Origin: Olsenella timonensis | Lineage (GTDB): Bacteria > Actinomycetota > Coriobacteriia > Coriobacteriales > Atopobiaceae | Assembly (NCBI RefSeq): GCF_900119915.1 | Contig: NZ_LT635455.1 | Span: 1,178,001-1,242,000 of the forward strand | DNA length: 64,000 nt | Direction: 5' to 3' | Shown: in pieces, positions 41,960-49,202 of the stretch | How positions within the stretch are numbered: the first letter of the stretch is position 1 | How the letters are laid out: each line of letters begins with the position of its first letter | Notes under the pieces: model-generated | Databases searched by the model: none | What the model saw: the letters and a program-made list of their open reading frames with translations, nothing else | What the model was told of the DNA's origin: nothing | Made by a program: the position numbers and the translations under genes

Positions 41960-42805
41960 CTAGCCCTTGACCGCACCCGCGGCGACGCCCTTGATGATGT
42001 ACTTCTGGCACGACAGGTAAAACACCACGACCGGGATGACGGCCATGATGAGGGCGGCCATGATGGCACCCATGTCCACGCGGCCGTACGAGCCCTTCAT
42101 GAACTGGATGACGATGGAGATCGTCTTGTACTTCGTCGTGTCGAGCACGAGGTACGGAAGCAGGAAGTCGTTCCAGATCCACATGGTCTGAAGGATGCCG
42201 ACGGAGATGAACGTGGGCTTCATGATGGGGATGACCACCGTGAAGAACGTCCTTATCGGCCCCGCTCCGTCGATCAGCGCCGCCTCCTCGATCTCTATGG
42301 GGATGGTCTTCACGAAGCCGCAGAACATGAACACCGCGAGTCCCGCGCCAAACCCGAGATAGATCACGATGATTCCCCAGGGCGTGGAGAGGCCGAGGCG
42401 GTCGGCGATGAGCGAGAGGGTGAACATGACCATCTGGAACGGGACGACCATCGAGAACACGCACAGGTAGTAGACCGCCTTGGTGAAGCGGTTCTGGACG
42501 CGGGTGATGTACCACGCGCACATGGACGTGCAGATGAGGATCACCGCGACCGATCCCACCGTGATGAAGACGGTCCAGCCCACGGAGTCGAGGAAGCCGT
42601 ACTTGTCGATCGCCGTCTCGTAGTTCTCGAGGCCGATGAACGTCTGCTCGGTGGGCAGGGAGAACGGCTCGAGGTTGATGAACAGCTTGTTCTTGAACGA
42701 GTTGAACAGCACCACCACGACGGGCAGCAGCCACACGACGCACAGGAACGCCATGAGGCCGGACCCCGCCCAGCCGAGGGCGCGTCGCTCCTTCTTGGTC
42801 GCCAT
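41960..42805 (-). CDS. Carbohydrate ABC transporter permease, MalG-type
   Basis: 281-residue permease with six hydrophobic segments. The EAA loop reads EAALIDGAGPIRTFF; the N-terminal segment and C-terminal KGVAAGAVKG ending match the MalG/LacG family. The ATG (42803-42805) overlaps the stop of the MalF-type permease by 1 nt, with GGAGG about 10 nt upstream. Confidence 0.92.
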   Translation of the reverse strand: MATKKERRALGWAGSGLMAFLCVVWLLPVVVVLFNSFKNKLFINLEPFSLPTEQTFIGLENYETAIDKYGFLDSVGWTVFITVGSVAVILICTSMCAWYITRVQNRFTKAVYYLCVFSMVVPFQMVMFTLSLIADRLGLSTPWGIIVIYLGFGAGLAVFMFCGFVKTIPIEIEEAALIDGAGPIRTFFTVVIPIMKPTFISVGILQTMWIWNDFLLPYLVLDTTKYKTISIVIQFMKGSYGRVDMGAIMAALIMAVIPVVVFYLSCQKYIIKGVAAGAVKG

Positions 42806-43647
42806 CACTGCTGCACCTCCCTGGAGCGCGTCGCGCGCAGCTGGATGAGGCCGATACCGACCACGATCAGGCAGAAGATGACCGCCTTGGCCTGGCCGAC
42901 GCCCTCCCAGCCGACGCGTCCGTAGAACGTGTTGTAGATGTTCAGGGCGAGCATCTCGGACATCTTGGACGGCTCGCCCGCCGTGAGCGACAGGTTCTGG
43001 TCGAAGAGCTTGAAGCCGTTGGTGAGCGAGAGGAACATGCAGATCGTGATCGACGACATCATCATCGGAATCGTGACGTCGACGAGCTGGCGCCAGGCGC
43101 TCGCCCCGTCGATGGCCGCCGCCTCCAGCACGTCGCCCGGGATCGACTGCAGGCCGGCGATGTAGATGATCATCATGTAGCCGATCTGCTGCCACGCCAC
43201 GAGGATGACGAGGCCGGCGAACCCGTACCACTCGTTGAGGTTCAGCGCCTGGGAGTACTGGGCGAGGATGCCGTTGAAGATGAGCTGCCAGATGTAGCCC
43301 AAAACGATGCCGCCGATGAGGTTGGGCATGAAGAACACCGTGCGGAACAGGTTGGTTCCGCGCAGCTTCCTCGTGAGCGCGAGGGCTATCGCGAACGCGA
43401 TGACGTTGATGACGATCACGGAGACGACGGTGAAGAGCGCCGTGTACCAGAACGAGTGCTGGAAGACGGTGTCCTGGACCGCCAGGACGAAGTTCGAGAA
43501 GCCCACGAACGTGGCGTCGGTGACCGTGGTGAAGTCGCACAGCGACAGCCACAGGCCCAGCAGAAACGGCGCCACGAAGCCGATGAGAAACGCCAGGAAC
43601 GTCGGCAGGACGAAGATGGGGAGATACTTCTTGATTGCCTTCTCCAT
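42805..43647 (-). CDS. Carbohydrate ABC transporter permease, MalF-type
   Basis: 280-residue permease with six hydrophobic segments and EAA loop EAAAIDGASAWRQLV. It lacks the long periplasmic P2 loop of E. coli MalF, as usual in Gram-positive sugar permeases. The ATG at 43645-43647 has GGAGG upstream. Confidence 0.92.
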   Translation of the reverse strand: MEKAIKKYLPIFVLPTFLAFLIGFVAPFLLGLWLSLCDFTTVTDATFVGFSNFVLAVQDTVFQHSFWYTALFTVVSVIVINVIAFAIALALTRKLRGTNLFRTVFFMPNLIGGIVLGYIWQLIFNGILAQYSQALNLNEWYGFAGLVILVAWQQIGYMMIIYIAGLQSIPGDVLEAAAIDGASAWRQLVDVTIPMMMSSITICMFLSLTNGFKLFDQNLSLTAGEPSKMSEMLALNIYNTFYGRVGWEGVGQAKAVIFCLIVVGIGLIQLRATRSREVQQ

Positions 43648-43669
43648 GTGACCTCCTTCCCTATGGAAG

Positions 43670-43701
43670 GGGCGGTGGGTGAGGGAAGGCACCCACCGCC
43701 C
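43670..43701 (-). terminator. Stem-loop between binding protein and permease genes
   Basis: 12-bp perfect stem with 8-nt loop and no T-run (CTTCC follows on the minus strand). It probably stabilises the binding-protein mRNA or attenuates readthrough, raising the ratio of binding protein to permease. Confidence 0.6.
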
Positions 43702-43733
43702 GAAAGGGGACGTGAACGCTGGCTTGTTGCGCC

Positions 43734-45077
43734 TTATGCCTTGGAGGCGGCAGCCTCGGTGGCCCAGCCGTCGACGAAGGCGGTCACGACGCCGTCCCAG
43801 TTGCCGTCGGTCTGGTCGGCCGCGTAGGTGGTGAGGGCGGAGCCCACGCCGTTCTTCCACTCCTCGGAGGGCATGGTCGAGAAGTTCCAGGAGACCGGGG
43901 TCTTCTCGGCGTTGATCTCGTCCGCGAGGTTGTTGAGGACGTTGGTGGACTCGAGGTTGGCCTCGAACGGGATCACGAAGCCCATGCCGGCCTCGCCGGA
44001 GGGCATGGCGCCCTCGGAGCCGCACATGGCGTTGACGCCGGTCTCGGAGGTGACGCACCAGTTGATGAAGTCGAGCGTGGCCTGGATGTCCTCCTCCGGC
44101 GCGTTCTTGTTCACGCACCAGTAGTTCTCGGAGCCGGTGCAGATGCCCTGGTCCTCCTCGCCGTCAACGCCGATGTAGATCGGAATCAGGGCGAGGTTCT
44201 CGTCGCCCACCTCGGCGACGTTGGCGTACTCCCACGTGCCGTTCTGATAGAACACGCACTGGCCGGTCACGAACTCGGCCGTGGCGTCATCGGCGGTCTT
44301 GGTGGAGAGCTGGGTGGGATCGCAGGTGGCGTTGTTGATGTAGAGGTCCCAGATCTGGCGGTAGTTGGGCAGGTAGGTGCCCTTGATGGCGTCGGTGTTG
44401 TCGATGCCCTCGTCCTTGTACTCGTAGTAGATCGGGAGGTTGGCGAGGTGCGTCTTGAAGCGCCAGTCGGAGGAGCCGTCCATGCCGGCCGAGCCGAAGG
44501 CGGAGAAGCCGAGCTCGTCCTTGCGGGCGGTGATGTCCTCCGCGACGGACTTGAGGCTGTCGAAGTTGGTGATGTCGTCGGTGCTGTAGCCGGCCTTCTC
44601 CAGCAGGGCCTTGTTGCAGATGATGCCGTAGGACTCGATGACGTAGGCGATGCCCTTGGTCTTGTCGTCGTCGCCCTTGAGGGCATAGGCGTCGTTGGTC
44701 AGCTGGCCCATGATCTCGGTGTCGTCGAGGTCATAGCAGTAGTCCTTCCAGGAGGCGAGACCCACGGGGCCGTTGACCTGGAAGAGCGTGGGCGCGTCGG
44801 TCTTGGCCATCTCGGACTTGAGCGTGGTCTCGTACTGGCCGGAGGCGGCCGTCATGACCGTCACGGGAACACCGGTCTCCTCGGTGTAGAGCTCGGCGAG
44901 CTCCTGCCACTGCGCGTCCTGCTCGGGCTTGAAGTTGAGGTAGTAGACCTTACCGGCGGCCTGCTTGTCGCCACCGCCGCTGGTCTGCTCGCCACCGCAG
45001 CCGGCGAGCGCGACCGCGCCCGCACCCGCCATGAGGCCGAGACCCGCCTGCACGAACTGACGCCTCTTCATCAACAT
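43734..45077 (-). CDS. Carbohydrate ABC transporter substrate-binding lipoprotein
   Basis: 447-residue extracellular sugar-binding protein (SBP_bac_1 type), first gene of the maltodextrin operon. N-terminus MLMKRRQFVQAGLGLMAGAG then lipobox ALAGC; the KRRQF suggests Tat export, as for LivK. After a Gly/Ser linker the mature part has the usual VYYLNFKPEQDAQWQELAELYTEETG start. ATG 45075-45077 has GGAGG 9 nt upstream; ATG 45069-45071 two codons on is an alternative. The maltodextrin substrate is inferred from malQ in the operon. Confidence 0.92.
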   Translation of the reverse strand: MLMKRRQFVQAGLGLMAGAGAVALAGCGGEQTSGGGDKQAAGKVYYLNFKPEQDAQWQELAELYTEETGVPVTVMTAASGQYETTLKSEMAKTDAPTLFQVNGPVGLASWKDYCYDLDDTEIMGQLTNDAYALKGDDDKTKGIAYVIESYGIICNKALLEKAGYSTDDITNFDSLKSVAEDITARKDELGFSAFGSAGMDGSSDWRFKTHLANLPIYYEYKDEGIDNTDAIKGTYLPNYRQIWDLYINNATCDPTQLSTKTADDATAEFVTGQCVFYQNGTWEYANVAEVGDENLALIPIYIGVDGEEDQGICTGSENYWCVNKNAPEEDIQATLDFINWCVTSETGVNAMCGSEGAMPSGEAGMGFVIPFEANLESTNVLNNLADEINAEKTPVSWNFSTMPSEEWKNGVGSALTTYAADQTDGNWDGVVTAFVDGWATEAAASKA

Positions 45078-45103
45078 AACGTGCTCCCTCCTACCGTTTC
45101 TTC

Positions 45104-45147
45104 GAAACGTTCCTTCCCTTTCCGAGGGCTGAATTTGGAAACGTTTC
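45104..45147 (-). promoter_or_regulatory. Two LacI/CcpA-type operators of the maltodextrin operon
   Basis: A perfect palindrome GAAACGTTTC (45138-45147) sits about 10 nt downstream of the expected start of transcription, and GAAACGTTCC (45104-45113) lies 34 nt further in. Both are in the 5' UTR of the binding-protein gene. Confidence 0.75.
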
Positions 45148-45162
45148 ATTTCCGTTGATTGC

Positions 45163-45191
45163 ATTAGAGCACGCTGAAGAATGACATTCAA
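45163..45191 (-). promoter_or_regulatory. Promoter of the maltodextrin operon
   Basis: TTGAAT (45186-45191) and TCTAAT (45163-45168) on the minus strand with a 17-nt spacer; predicted start near 45156, directly before the operators. Confidence 0.75.
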
Positions 45192-45308
45192 CTGGCAGTT
45201 CTTTCAAAAACCGGCTGACGCCGTTTTGCTACCGCTCACGAAACAACGACCAAAACTGGAAAGGGTTCCAACACGCCGGCAGACCGCGCCTCTCGCTCGG
45301 CACGAACG

Positions 45309-45376
45309 TCGAGGCGGAGGATTTACACAAAACGGGCCCTCCCAAGGGGTGGTTTTGTGTCAATCCTCCGCCTCGA
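45309..45376. repeat. 68-bp inverted-repeat element
   Basis: Arms of 25 nt (45309-45333 and 45352-45376) pair with one mismatch, beginning TCGAGGCGGAGGATT and running to ACACAAAAC. The 18-nt loop also contains a GGGCCC/AAGGGG stretch. No T-run and no gene end fits, so it looks like a mobile or former mobile sequence. The 657-nt gene-free stretch 45078-45734 holds the mal promoter and operators, this element, a terminator-like hairpin and the transposase-like remnant. Confidence 0.7.
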
Positions 45377-45410
45377 TGGGAGGGGGCGCCCCGCGGCGGT
45401 CTGCACGCAC

Positions 45411-45443
45411 AAGAAAAGGGGCGGCGCCCCATTGCGCCGCCCC
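45411..45443 (-). terminator. Orphan terminator hairpin
   Basis: 10-bp perfect stem (45418-45427 with 45434-45443) followed on the minus strand by TTTTCTT. The nearest minus-strand stop is the LuxR gene at 45735, 290 nt upstream, so it may end that transcript or belong to the remnant in between. Confidence 0.65.
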
Positions 45444-45446
45444 GCC

Positions 45447-45536
45447 TCATCTGTACTTTGGAATCACCCGTGTCTCTGAGAATAGATGGTGGACAACTGG
45501 GTATTCAACTTGGGCCCGCTTCGAGTGTTCCTGTCA
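45447..45536 (-). pseudogene. Possible IS5-type transposase C-terminal remnant
   Basis: A 29-codon open stretch without start reads QEHSKRAQVEYPVVHHLF, then SETRVIPKYR and stop. VEYP...LF..T.V..KYR resembles the KVEHPF..VK..FG.TK.RYRG ending of IS5/IS1182-type transposases. It is bounded upstream by TGATGA, with no other transposase motif. The similarity is short and from memory of the family, so this is tentative. Confidence 0.3.
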
Positions 45537-45734
45537 TCAGTCCGTTCCGAAATACGTTTCGGAGAACGTTGGCGAGTGCGCTCGCCCCAGATGTTATAGG
45601 ACCTCGGTCGCACGGTCGGCGGGCCCAAACTGCACGTTCTCTTCGCTGTTCACTGGACTCGCCTCCTTATGACGGTCGCTGGTTTGTAGCGACGGTGCCC
45701 TTGCTTACTCACCTTGTTCCCGCGCAAGCGGGGT

Positions 45735-47051
45735 TTACACGTTCGTATCAGAGTCGTCCGCAAGCGGGCTGTTTTTGCCGGCAGACGGTATAAGCCCCAC
45801 GTCACGGGCGAGAAGATCGGCAAGCTGACGACTCGTGTGCACCCCGAGCAGCTCATAGCCCTGCGCCCGGTAGGCGTTCACAGTCCCGGGAGCGACGTGC
45901 AGCGCCTCGCAGACCTCAGGGGTGCTGAGCCCGAGCGCGATCTTGAACAGCACGTGCGCCTGAAGTTCGCCGGCGCCGCGGCCGCGCAGGTAGAGCACGC
46001 AGCGCTCCTCGTCGAGTCGCATTGACTCCCGCGTCTTGGGCCACAGGAGGTGCGGCGCAAGCGCCGCGAGGGCACCCGTGTAGGCAATCGGTGCGAACGC
46101 GTTGACGCTCAGCGTGTCGGAGCCCAGGCGCACCTCGAGCCCGTACCGCCCGCCGCCCACGAGCATGCCGGCGGCGAGAAGGGCGAGCAGCACGATGGAG
46201 AGCCCCGCGGTGGGCCGACGGGGACGCACCCGCATGTTGCGCAGACGCGCATACCCCACGAGGACGAGCCATGGCACGACGAGCGCCGCCAGGACGGCCA
46301 GGGTGCCCAGGGCCTGGGAGAGCGCGTCCGCACCCGTCACGACGACGCGCGTCAGCATGCGCAGCGTGAGTCCCGCGCAGAGGGCCATCACCATGAGCGG
46401 GAGCGCCCCGGAGGACGTGACGCCCATCGCGGGAGGAACAGCGGCCGCGCCGACCTCGCGCGGCAAGACCTCGTCGAGGGAAGCCACCCCGAGCTTCTCA
46501 CACGCCCGCGCACGATAGGTGGCAACCGTCGAGGGGCTTATCGCCAGCGCCTCAGCCACCTGCGCCTGCGTGCTGCCCGTGACGAGGGCCTCGACGACCT
46601 CCCGCTCGCGCCCCGTGAGCGTCTCCACCCCTGGGCGGCACCCCACCGGCGACGAGACTCGCTCGTCGCCCGAGGGAAGCGCCCAGACGACGAGCGAGGC
46701 TCCCCAGAGCACCCAGGCGACGTAGCGCAGCGCCCACTCCGGCCAGCGCAGGACAAAGCCGAGCCTCATGCTCCCCGAGCAGCTCGCCCAGAGCACCGCC
46801 AGATAGACGAGAAGTGCCGCGAGCGCCGCACCGCCCAGCGCGCGACGCCAGCGCGCCAGGCTGTCGCGCAGCGCCCAGGCGAATGCCGCCGCCACGAACG
46901 CGAGCGGGATCGCCGACGTCCAGAGGTAGTAGTCGAGCGGGAGATGTCCTCCCTCCCCCATCGTCCGAGCGACTCCGGGCGCCAGCAGCAGGGCGACTCC
47001 CCCCGCCACCCACACGGCCACGCGCACGATCGTCTTCACCCTTGCGTCCAT
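45735..47051 (-). CDS. Membrane protein with two LuxR-type DNA-binding domains
   Basis: 438-residue regulator with an apparent internal duplication. First half: about four hydrophobic helices (roughly 8-125) then a LuxR/GerE helix-turn-helix, LTGREREVVEALVTGSTQAQVAEALAISPSTVATYRARACEKLGV. Second half: again about four hydrophobic helices (roughly 205-330), then a second LuxR-like domain at the C-terminus (LGLSTPEVCEALHVAPGTVNAYRAQGYELLGV). Coriobacteria encode many membrane proteins with one C-terminal LuxR domain; a middle plus terminal pair is unusual. No sensor kinase is adjacent. ATG at 47049-47051 with GGGAGG 5 nt upstream. Ligand and targets unknown. Confidence 0.85.
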   Translation of the reverse strand: MDARVKTIVRVAVWVAGGVALLLAPGVARTMGEGGHLPLDYYLWTSAIPLAFVAAAFAWALRDSLARWRRALGGAALAALLVYLAVLWASCSGSMRLGFVLRWPEWALRYVAWVLWGASLVVWALPSGDERVSSPVGCRPGVETLTGREREVVEALVTGSTQAQVAEALAISPSTVATYRARACEKLGVASLDEVLPREVGAAAVPPAMGVTSSGALPLMVMALCAGLTLRMLTRVVVTGADALSQALGTLAVLAALVVPWLVLVGYARLRNMRVRPRRPTAGLSIVLLALLAAGMLVGGGRYGLEVRLGSDTLSVNAFAPIAYTGALAALAPHLLWPKTRESMRLDEERCVLYLRGRGAGELQAHVLFKIALGLSTPEVCEALHVAPGTVNAYRAQGYELLGVHTSRQLADLLARDVGLIPSAGKNSPLADDSDTNV

Positions 47052-47154
47052 GCAACCTCCCGTTCGTGACGTTTTGGGGGCATCGTAGCCGCCGCGGGCA
47101 GATTCGTCACGTCGCGAACGCTATGCGAGTGCCCGTGACACGGTTCCTCTTGAC

Positions 47155-47187
47155 AAAAAGGCGCCCCGGGCGAGTGGCCCGGGGCGC
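47155..47187 (-). terminator. Terminator of the infC-rpmI-rplT operon
   Basis: 10-bp GC-only stem (47161-47170 with 47178-47187), followed on the minus strand by TTTTT, 25 nt after rplT. Confidence 0.9.
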
Positions 47188-47211
47188 TCGTCTCACGCTA
47201 TGTGCGCAGCG

Positions 47212-47577
47212 CTACTCGGCGTCGGCGAGGGCCTTCTTGGCGACCTCGGCGATGTCGGCGAAGGTGGCCTCGTCAGAGTAGGCAATCTCGGCGAGGACCT
47301 TGCGGTCGAGCTCGACGCCAGCGAGCTTGAGGCCGTGCATGAGCTTGCTGTAGGACAGGCCGTTCATGCGGGCGGCGGCGTTGATGCGCTGAATCCACAG
47401 GGCGCGGAAGTCGCGCTTCTTGTTGCGGCGATCGCGGTAGGCGTACTGGCCGGAGTGCTGCGCCTGCTCCTTCATTCCACGGAAGGTGCGGGAGCGGACT
47501 CCGTAGTAGCCCTTGGTGCGCTCTGCGAGCGTGTTGCGCTTCTTACGGCCGGCGACGGCGCGCTTGACTCGTGCCAT
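47212..47577 (-). CDS. rplT: Ribosomal protein L20
   Basis: 121-residue 50S protein, needed early in assembly. The N-terminal basic [15 protein letters not shown] and the globular [20 protein letters not shown] are diagnostic. In several bacteria L20 also binds the leader of this operon; the leader here has a terminator (48432-48468) that could be its target. Confidence 0.98.
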
Positions 47578-47622
47578 ATCTAATCAACTCCTTGATGGGA
47601 ACTTCACTCGAGAGGAGGGCGC

Positions 47623-47820
47623 CTAGTTGGAGCCCATGCGCTGGGAGACGGTCTTGACGTCGGCGTCGGAGATGACGGTCTCCTGGCGGAAGCCGCGGAT
47701 GCGCTTGGGCGACTTCTTGGTGAGGATGTGGCTCTTGAACGCCTTGGCGCGCATGATCTTGCCAGAGCCGGTGCGGCGGAAGCGCTTCGCCGTACCCTTG
47801 TGGGTCTTCATCTTGGGCAT
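47623..47820 (-). CDS. rpmI: Ribosomal protein L35
   Basis: 65-residue 50S protein with the typical [21 protein letters not shown] start. It begins 1 nt after the infC stop codon. Confidence 0.98.
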
Positions 47821-47821
47821 G

Positions 47822-48394
47822 CTAGTTCTCCTTCTCCGTTGCTGCCTCGTCGTCCTTCTCGTCCTTCTTGTCGAAGGCACCCTTGATCGGGACGATGGTC
47901 ATGTGCATGTTGCGGCCTTCCATGAGCGGCTTCTGCTCGACGGTGGCAACGTCCTTGAGGTCCTCCGCCAGACGGTCGAGCACGAGGCGACCCTGCTCGG
48001 GGTGGGCCATCTCACGACCGCGGAACATGATCGTGATCTTGACGCGCGCACCCTTCTTGAGGAAGCGAATCACGTGACCCTTCTTGGTCTCGTAGTCGCC
48101 CACGTCGATCTTGGGACGGAACTTCATCTCCTTGATCTCGACCTTGGACTGGTTCTTGCGCGCCGCCTTGGCCTTGCGGTCCTGATCGTACTTGTACTTC
48201 TTGTAGTCGAGCATCTTGCAGACGGGGGGATCGGCGTTTGGCGCAATCTCCACGAGGTCGAGACCCTGGTCACCCGCGATGCGCAGGGCGTCGCGCACGC
48301 CGAAGAGCCCCATCTGGGAACCGTCGACGCCGATCAGGCGACACGTGCGGGATGTGATCTCCTCGTTGATGCGAGGACCGTCGTTTCTGGCTAT
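47822..48394 (-). CDS. infC: Translation initiation factor IF-3, apparent AUA start
   Basis: 190-residue factor that proofreads initiator tRNA and start codons on the 30S subunit. The first ATG (48311-48313) falls inside a conserved strand ([14 protein letters not shown]). Reading up in frame gives [14 protein letters not shown] and [11 protein letters not shown], the conserved IF-3 N-terminus. The frame is blocked by TGA two codons before ATA (48392-48394), so the start must be ATA or the preceding ACG. AGGAAGG lies 8 nt before ATA. Non-AUG infC starts (AUU in E. coli and B. subtilis) let IF-3 repress its own synthesis; AUA would do the same. A C-terminal Lys/Glu/Asp tail of about 20 residues is extra. 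Confidence 0.92.
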
Positions 48395-48431
48395 CGTTCA
48401 CACCTTCCTCTCGCCGCGGCTTCCGCCGCAT

Positions 48432-48468
48432 AAAAAAAGCTCCTGGCGCCACGAGAGCCGTCCAGGAG
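48432..48468 (-). terminator. Attenuator in the infC-rpmI-rplT leader
   Basis: CTCCTGG/CCAGGAG stem (48440-48446 with 48462-48468, further pairing inside) followed on the minus strand by TTTTTTT, 38 nt upstream of the infC start codon. It lies downstream of the operon promoter, so it must be a regulated premature terminator. Confidence 0.75.
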
Positions 48469-48580
48469 ACATCGACCGCCCCTCACGGGGGCGCAGGATA
48501 CGTTGTCTGACCAGACAGCTGCCAGAAGGCGCCGTGTAGGTGGGGGCTTTCGCCCCGCTTCGCAAAACGCACACTGGGAG

Positions 48581-48609
48581 AGAATAGCACGCGCGACGGG
48601 CCCCGGCAA
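48581..48609 (-). promoter_or_regulatory. Promoter of the infC-rpmI-rplT operon
   Basis: TTGCCG (48604-48609) and TATTCT (48581-48586) on the minus strand with a 17-nt spacer; gives a leader of about 180 nt with GGGGC-GAAA-GCCCC and CGCCCC-GGGGCG hairpins before the attenuator. Confidence 0.6.
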
Positions 48610-48638
48610 GAGGATTCTTGCGCCGGCACCCGTCGCGC
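48589..48638 (-). terminator. Large hairpin after ferritin, overlapping the infC promoter
   Basis: Arms GCGCGACGGG (48589-48598) and CCCGTCGCGC (48629-48638) with inner CCGGCAAGAG/CTTGCGCCGG pairing. It probably ends the ferritin transcript; no strong T-run follows. Its left half contains the -35 box of the infC promoter. Confidence 0.55.
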
Positions 48639-48683
48639 GAGGCCTTCAGAGCTTCTCCACAGGAGCCCGAGGAGGCGGGTCCT

Positions 48684-49202
48684 CTAGAGGTTGAGGGAGG
48701 CGGACTGGACGTAGGTGCGGGCCTGATACTCGCGGTCAAGGTCGTAGAGGCCCTTGGGGTCGCAGCCGAAGAGCTTCATGTTGGTGATCATGTCGCGCGC
48801 GTTGGTCTCCTCCTCGCCCTGCTCGGAGACGAACCAGTCGAGGAACTTCATCGTGCGAACGTCGTGCTTGGCGTGGGCGACCTCATAGCAGTGGTGAATG
48901 AGGCTCGTGACGTACTCCTCGTGCTCAAGGCCGGCCTCGAGCGGCGCGAGGTCGCTCTCGAAGGTCTTGTCCGGCTTGGCGATGGCCTCCATCGTGGGCT
49001 TGAAGTCGTTGTCCAGCAGGTAGCGACGGATGGCGAGCGCGTGGTCCATCTCCTCCTTGGCCTGGATCTCGTACCAGTTGGCAAAGCCCTTGAGGCCGCG
49101 GTCGTCATAGTAGTCGGCAAAGGTGAGATAGAGGTACGCCGAGTACATCTCCTTGTTGATCTGCTCGTTCAGGACCGTGGTGACTTCGCTCGAGAGTGCC
49201 AT
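48684..49202 (-). CDS. ftnA: Bacterial non-haem ferritin
   Basis: 172-residue iron-storage protein forming a 24-mer shell. Ferroxidase ligands are visible in NEQINKEMYSAYLYL (E18), EIQAKEEMDHA (Glu/His pair) and the FVSEQGEEET segment. The SD is GGAAGG 7 nt upstream of ATG 49200-49202. It sits alone between tRNA-Leu and the infC operon. Confidence 0.93.
   Translation of the reverse strand: MALSSEVTTVLNEQINKEMYSAYLYLTFADYYDDRGLKGFANWYEIQAKEEMDHALAIRRYLLDNDFKPTMEAIAKPDKTFESDLAPLEAGLEHEEYVTSLIHHCYEVAHAKHDVRTMKFLDWFVSEQGEEETNARDMITNMKLFGCDPKGLYDLDREYQARTYVQSASLNL

Follow-up and report, generated by a model that had tools for sequence, protein, structure and literature searches.

The closest described systems are the membrane LuxR regulators of Coriobacteriia. 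Dong et al. (2022; PMC9734109) reported 83 membrane LuxRs in Eggerthella lenta DSM 2243, 74 of which carry 10-12 N-terminal transmembrane (TM) helices and a C-terminal helix-turn-helix (HTH). According to excerpts of the same paper, such regulators control catechol (e.g., dopamine) metabolism in E. lenta; DadR, HcdR and CadR are needed for substrate induction of metabolic genes, and the TM domain of DadR is required for dopamine-induced activation (PMC9734109). In those excerpts the passage of the signal from the membrane bundle to the DNA-binding domain is called unclear, the DNA-binding domain is C-terminal only, and neither 'two HTH' nor 'Olsenella' occurs (PMC9734109). LuxR, GerE and 'two DNA-binding' are absent from the excerpted main text of a survey of transmembrane transcription regulators (PMC10269533).

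We analysed a 438-aa regulator encoded in a 64,000-nucleotide stretch of Olsenella timonensis DNA (the window). Like DadR, HcdR and CadR as excerpted (PMC9734109), it is a one-component protein of related bacteria with a polytopic membrane domain and a C-terminal GerE/LuxR HTH. It departs from the 10-12-TM LuxRs of that study in three ways: its eight predicted TM helices are grouped four and four, a further HTH stands between the two groups, and its own promoter carries a palindrome. It shares the C-terminal GerE HTH (residues 363-418) and lacks the 10-12 N-terminal TM helices, which places it outside that family by definition; by analogy, it would work like the family. Among the matches listed in the open-access literature, no membrane LuxR with two HTHs and no LuxR HTH-PASTA protein was evident; the double-HTH membrane form is a real, conserved architecture, which none of those matches evidently describes.

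Two LuxR-type heads in one membrane protein

The regulator gene lies at positions 45735-47051, coordinates that the original prediction had right, on the minus strand, with an ATG start and a GGGAGG ribosome-binding site. In the host genome (2.18 Mb, single contig) no paralogue was found at E up to 0.01, the sole match being the protein itself. The closest named relatives found are from Atopobium sp. UBA1382 (88%), an uncultured Olsenella (a fragment, 85%) and Candidatus Olsenella stercoravium (84%), followed by Olsenella sp. An270 (83%) and Olsenella uli An820 (77%). Our protein alignment (A1) combines the window protein with 20 orthologues that are 39-88% identical, and was made without L016 (in-frame TGA), L023 (deletion) and L024 (remnant); the frame and both HTHs are kept in all 21 sequences.

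LuxR-type HTHs had been predicted in the middle and at the C-terminus, each behind about four hydrophobic helices, and both parts of that description were borne out. Pfam GerE has two matching stretches in the protein (whole-protein score 74.2 bits against a cut-off of 23.5; best stretch 144-194), and in a whole-genome GerE scan the HTH1 and HTH2 copies scored 53.3 and 28.4 bits. With both HTHs above the Pfam cut-off and a NarL/GerE-kind fold in the predicted model, the regulator belongs to PF00196. HTH1 spans residues 143-196 (46464-46625, minus strand), with 19 of 54 columns invariant, and HTH2 residues 363-418 (45798-45965, minus strand), with 25 of 56. Adjoining HTH2 on the same strand are a conserved lead-in (residues 346-362, 45966-46016; 12/17 columns invariant) and a conserved C-terminal tail with an invariant PSAGK (residues 419-431, 45759-45797; 8/13 columns invariant). 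By eye, some paralogues have loosely similar tails (AGLT...HP).

The AlphaFold2 model (21 sequences; mean pLDDT 73.9, pTM 0.58) has long helices at the hydrophobic segments and two HTHs, in which the fourth helix is very short in HTH1 and full in HTH2. In structure alignments of this model, residues 140-199 superposed on NarL-DNA 1je8 (Z 9.7, rmsd 2.2, 60 aligned) and residues 350-420 on FixJ 5xso (Z 9.1, rmsd 2.2, 67 aligned), so that both HTHs are predicted to fold as NarL/FixJ-type domains. The regulator thus resembles NarL/FixJ/GerE proteins in its heads, at Z about 9, and differs from them in that these heads are tethered to membrane helices; among the 10 Pfam families reported at E up to 1 there was no receiver, ligand-binding or autoinducer-binding domain. 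An MFS-like (12-TM) membrane fold was also considered. Transporter alignments (VIA-align) to ferroportin, SPNS and MelB chains (Z 8.3-9.7, rmsd 8-10, ~220-245 residues), and of block 1 alone to FLVCR1/2 (Z 8.4-8.6, rmsd 3.2-3.5, 114-122 residues), were within the range expected for unrelated helical bundles, and Foldseek of the model returned no PDB match at E up to 0.001.

Single-sequence hydropathy places the four segments of membrane block 1 (residues 8-125; 46677-47030, minus strand) at 8-26, 43-61, 71-89 and 107-125, and those of block 2 (residues 215-336; 46044-46409, minus strand) at 215-233, 247-265, 282-300 and 314-332; the model has helices in both blocks. Averaged over the 21 aligned sequences, hydropathy again gives eight segments in roughly these positions, with the lowest value (1.18) in the fourth. 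Counted per sequence at a cut of 1.3, there are eight segments in 13 sequences, seven in 6, nine in 1 and six in 1. Mean K+R is 1.2 in the short N-terminus, 4.4 and 4.9 in the two interhelical loops predicted to lie inside, and 0.4-1.9 across the four predicted to lie outside. Because four helices precede each HTH and basic residues sit in the inside loops, both HTHs are predicted to be cytoplasmic, and the topology, which had been called unusual, is not paradoxical.

The protein had also been read as a duplicated 4TM + LuxR unit. This is right for the HTHs, which are homologous (38% identical over 56 positions, BLASTP E 1e-7), but between the membrane blocks no homology could be detected (hhalign probability 0.3%). 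On that result, and on an HTH tree in which the first and second HTHs fall mostly in separate groups, an internal duplication of the entire unit is not supported. The tree took in 55 HTHs of each position (first and second) and, from single-HTH proteins with at least 9 hydrophobic segments, 18 C-terminal HTHs; most near-identical orthologues, HTH rows under 50 residues and identical rows were left out. The HTH2 alignment A3 was made without row L006. On its 72 columns, with many weak forks, an unsettled bootstrap, rows picked by search hits and some rows that are one gene seen in two loci, 50 of the 55 second HTHs formed one group (90/80), all 55 first HTHs together with 3 second HTHs formed another (96/93), and 2 second HTHs were placed among the single-HTH rows. 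There were 3 and 6 label changes, compared with ~41 in shuffles, and HTH1 and HTH2 of the 438-aa regulator fell in the HTH1 and HTH2 groups, respectively. At its simplest, the tree suggests an old HTH1-HTH2 pair whose surrounding membrane parts have varied.

Across the 21 sequences, mean column identity is 0.88 in both recognition helices and 0.56 in each membrane block; it reaches 0.95 in the 17 residues before HTH2 and 0.82 in the PSAGK tail. Judged from these columns, both heads look to be under selection, and neither looks like a relic.

A palindrome at the regulator's own promoter

Among 31 same-genus genomes (that of the window included), 22 carry a full-length copy of the gene, one of them with an in-frame TGA (L016); two carry fragments (G014 and G020) and seven none. 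The gene is widespread but dispensable. Upstream of it lies rplT (ribosomal protein L20; 47212-47577, minus strand), a conserved neighbour that we do not think part of the system. Between the two, a terminator-like hairpin with a T run (47155-47187, minus strand; by eye) separates the regulator gene from the ribosomal operon; downstream of this terminator the gene apparently has a promoter of its own. We detected rplT upstream in 19 of 21 regulator loci (tblastn, E 1e-5); the two misses are L018, with 243 bp of upstream sequence available, and L020, where a transposase gene intervenes and rplT lies beyond the palindrome site. Directly downstream in the window are ABC transporter genes (41960-45191, minus strand), namely that of a solute-binding protein (43734-45191, same strand as the regulator) and two permease genes beyond it. 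No Rfam family reached its gathering score in 45100-48800.

Alignment of 20 upstream sequences, from which L016 and L020 were left out (L020 has an IS110-type transposase gene between promoter and gene), showed a TACGAT -10 box and one conserved stretch, TGTC...GCATA...CGACRTGAC. In the window the -10 box lies at 47082-47087 (minus strand); its TACG and final T are invariant, and its A nearly so, in the 20 sequences. The conserved stretch holds a 31-bp inverted repeat (47110-47140, minus strand), a proposed operator whose centre, GCATA, is 37 nt from the -10 box. It abuts a weak -35-like hexamer, GTGACG (47105-47110, minus strand), read by eye from the consensus. The outer arms, TGTC/GACR, are ~27 bp apart centre to centre, and the inner arms adjoin GCATA. 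This repeat, which is conserved, has its centre 37 nt upstream of the -10 box at near-fixed spacing and is nearly the sole such site per genome, is a new finding.

The palindrome could be extracted from 19 of the 20 upstream regions; the exception, L010, was trimmed short and has the site in a separate look. Eleven of the 19 sites are 31 bp long; the other eight lack one base at the left end and measure 30 bp. With arms and centre chosen after inspection of the sequences, the arms of the 31-bp sites match at a mean of 9.1 of 13 positions, against a mean of 3.5 (sd 1.2) in column shuffles, none of which in 20,000 was as high. The best copy matches at 12/13; the window's own copy matches at 8/13, a level also reached by the best of 1616 other 31-bp windows in the same upstream regions, which match at 8/13 at most. 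The 30-bp sites match at 5-8 positions.

Searching the 31 genomes with the site pattern gave 24 sites in 22 genomes, compared with 2 for the reversed control. By coordinate comparison, 22 of the 24 are at the regulator promoter, including that of G016, split from its gene by a transposase, and that of G014, which precedes a fragment. One genome with the gene (G003) has the site with one mismatch. The pattern had no match in the seven genomes that lack the gene, nor in G020, with its remnant; joint loss is expected, because the site is part of the gene's promoter. The informative point of this search is the near absence of other sites: the two extra matches in relatives (G013:C30 and G005:C7) equal the reversed control in number. 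A relaxed pattern (up to 3 mismatches) gave 24 matches in the window's own genome against 5 for its reversed control, with 0 mismatches only at the regulator's own promoter and no full GCATA centre in the three 2-mismatch matches; by pattern and relaxed-pattern search, this genome has no second good palindrome site. Scanned with a weight matrix that includes the promoter palindrome itself, the window gave 44.6 bits for that palindrome and 8.6 bits for the next-best site.

At L023 433-1080 and L035 (both G014, CASEQJ010000024.1), residues 5-102 are joined directly to 344-438, so that HTH1 and most membrane helices are gone while the promoter palindrome is kept, through either a deletion or an assembly error. 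At L167 93-1415 (G016:C11), an IS110-type transposase gene (Pfam) stands between the regulator promoter and the gene.

Related double-headed genes

We counted 48 further double-HTH genes, a gene seen in two loci being counted once. Their HTHs keep one order: of the two HTH models, H1 fits the first and H2 the second in every gene but L128, whose second HTH also fits H1 better. The genes occur in three families of the order (f1, f2 and f10), f2 being represented by one gene (L136). Among the matches listed, strong HTH2 matches were confined to the same order, in at least 6 of 198 sampled phylum genomes. Two GerE stretches were found by Pfam in 12 of the 13 double-HTH proteins submitted; L068 gave one.

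Two arrangements can be told apart. In the split-membrane forms the number of hydrophobic segments varies (e.g., 6+6, 7+10, 11+12), and a few have none or one before HTH1. In the side-by-side forms HTH1 and HTH2 adjoin, and most have one or more hydrophobic segments after the pair. The latter (for example L049, L061 and L062 of the same genus) share the ordered pair with the 438-aa regulator and differ from it in having no membrane bundle between the HTHs. Pfam found a PASTA domain after the pair in 7 of 10 side-by-side proteins (L054, L055, L061, L062, L063, L115 and L116) and none in L049, L050 and L051. The seven PASTA proteins, all from same-genus relatives, run from the double LuxR HTH through a hydrophobic segment to the PASTA domain or domains.

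Side-by-side genes are preceded by a related palindrome of about CGTGGCAA...TKCATA...TTGCCACG, 37-38 nt before the -10 box and centred like the orthologue site. Examples from both positive groups had been seen before we framed a rule for such sites (a CAT[AG] centre, 36-38 nt to TANNNT, palindromy at 6 or more of 11 positions), which means that the shuffle rates given here do not amount to a blind test. The rule was passed by 8 of 14 side-by-side genes (shuffles 0/420) and by 15 of 22 copies of the 438-aa regulator gene (shuffles 3/660). It was passed by none of the 33 other split-membrane double-HTH genes (shuffles 7/990), some of whose upstream stretches belong to ORFs truncated at a locus end or fall within neighbouring genes, and by none of 17 single C-terminal HTH genes (shuffles 2/510). 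The eight side-by-side passes are L049, L050, L051-L053 and three of the seven PASTA-bearing genes (L055, L061 and L062); L051-L053 are near copies, which leaves ~6 independent cases. L122 and L124, from another family, failed. This shared palindrome layout is, at the level of sequence, the strongest new evidence in our analysis.

A narrow, exact form of the side-by-side pattern gave 4 matches in the 31 genomes against 2 in the control, two of them at side-by-side genes (G008 and G003) and two unexplained (G013 and G024). A generic search for long palindromes ahead of the other double-HTH genes returned many kinds of repeat, several of them, as we read them, terminator-like or within coding sequence; a shared centre appeared in the side-by-side group only.

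One composite site or two

We favour, with a probability of about 0.53, a membrane one-component regulator that is autoregulated and whose two HTHs both read one composite palindrome. Weighing against this reading are the pass rate of 3 in 7 among PASTA-bearing side-by-side genes, which lowered our confidence slightly, the lack of the palindrome before the other split-membrane genes, and the arm match of 8/13 in the window's own species. Two four-helix membrane blocks would hold the two LuxR/GerE heads on the cytoplasmic side, where HTH1 and HTH2 would act together on one long site rather than on two distant ones. We infer that the regulator binds the palindrome at its own promoter. A reading of one composite site by both heads is suggested because the heads are conserved and predicted to be cytoplasmic, because the single long palindrome has outer and inner arm parts, and because a site of this kind also precedes some genes with side-by-side heads. 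The symmetry of the site and its length of about 31 bp lead us to propose two chains with four heads; most likely a homodimer would set its four HTHs along the inverted repeat. With its centre ~50 bp upstream of the predicted transcription start and a poor -35 adjoining it, the palindrome has a position suggestive of self-activation by the regulator. The membrane bundle may be the sensor, an analogy drawn from DadR, which needs its TM domain to activate in response to dopamine; on sensing a ligand or a membrane state, the bundle would then alter the spacing or pairing of the two HTHs. AraC/MarA-type regulators likewise place two HTHs of one chain on one composite site, with HTHs of a different family and no membrane block between them.

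A single chain might suffice, if HTH1 and HTH2 of one molecule formed an internal pseudo-dimer on the palindrome in place of the LuxR homodimer. The two HTHs share homology and occur as a pair in fixed order, adjacent on a short linker in some paralogues, and their unequal fourth helices in the model could permit an unequal pairing; yet two unlike HTHs fit a symmetric site less well than a symmetric dimer does, and a 31-bp repeat with outer arms ~27 bp apart is long for one LuxR-type pair, given the spacing of known lux-type sites. We consider this arrangement unlikely. That the two heads bind and bridge two separate DNA sites, as the original prediction raised, is possible but not favoured, and we rate it as quite improbable. 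Two intact, equally conserved HTHs parted by a membrane block would fit bridging, but the only conserved site found is the single palindrome at the regulator's own promoter: there is one per genome, and the two extra matches in 31 genomes are at control level, in a search that sites of another form would escape. Side-by-side paralogues, moreover, have the same kind of single site.

It is likewise rather improbable that the palindrome belongs to another regulator and that the 438-aa protein controls the adjacent ABC transporter genes. Those genes are directly downstream on the same strand, but only 3 of 21 copies had the solute-binding gene as a detected neighbour (tblastn, E 1e-5), even though all 21 loci include 1.2-1.5 kb on that side; rplT, by contrast, is upstream of 19 of 21. 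Related palindromes precede other double-HTH genes, and no window site other than the promoter palindrome exceeded 8.6 bits. The suggestion that the hydrophobic segments are soluble helices, or that the ORF is a chance frame, is largely refuted and is given very little weight. Seven of 21 aligned sequences fall below eight segments at the cut of 1.3 and model confidence is moderate, but the frame is kept throughout orthologues as little as 39% identical, and the segments look truly transmembrane by both the family-average hydropathy and the positive-inside pattern.

More broadly, and tentatively, the favoured single-site reading might extend to a double-headed class in Coriobacteriales, in which a membrane bundle between two unlike HTHs sets the distance between the heads on a four-part palindrome of ~31 bp, and in which the HTH pair has been recombined with PASTA domains. 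If so, two chains would lay four HTHs on the DNA, and a membrane signal would be converted directly into the geometry of the DNA site; the side-by-side HTH-PASTA proteins would possibly be direct cell-wall-to-promoter sensors. The double-HTH family offers a small, testable system: a defined candidate target of 31 bp, heads that can each be mutated, and variants in nature with the heads either together or split by membrane helices.

Short ORFs of 159-252 aa with a lone HTH1-like domain were also seen in related genera (L119, L120, L121, L123 and L125, in G141, G065, G124 and G105); these have one or two hydrophobic segments.
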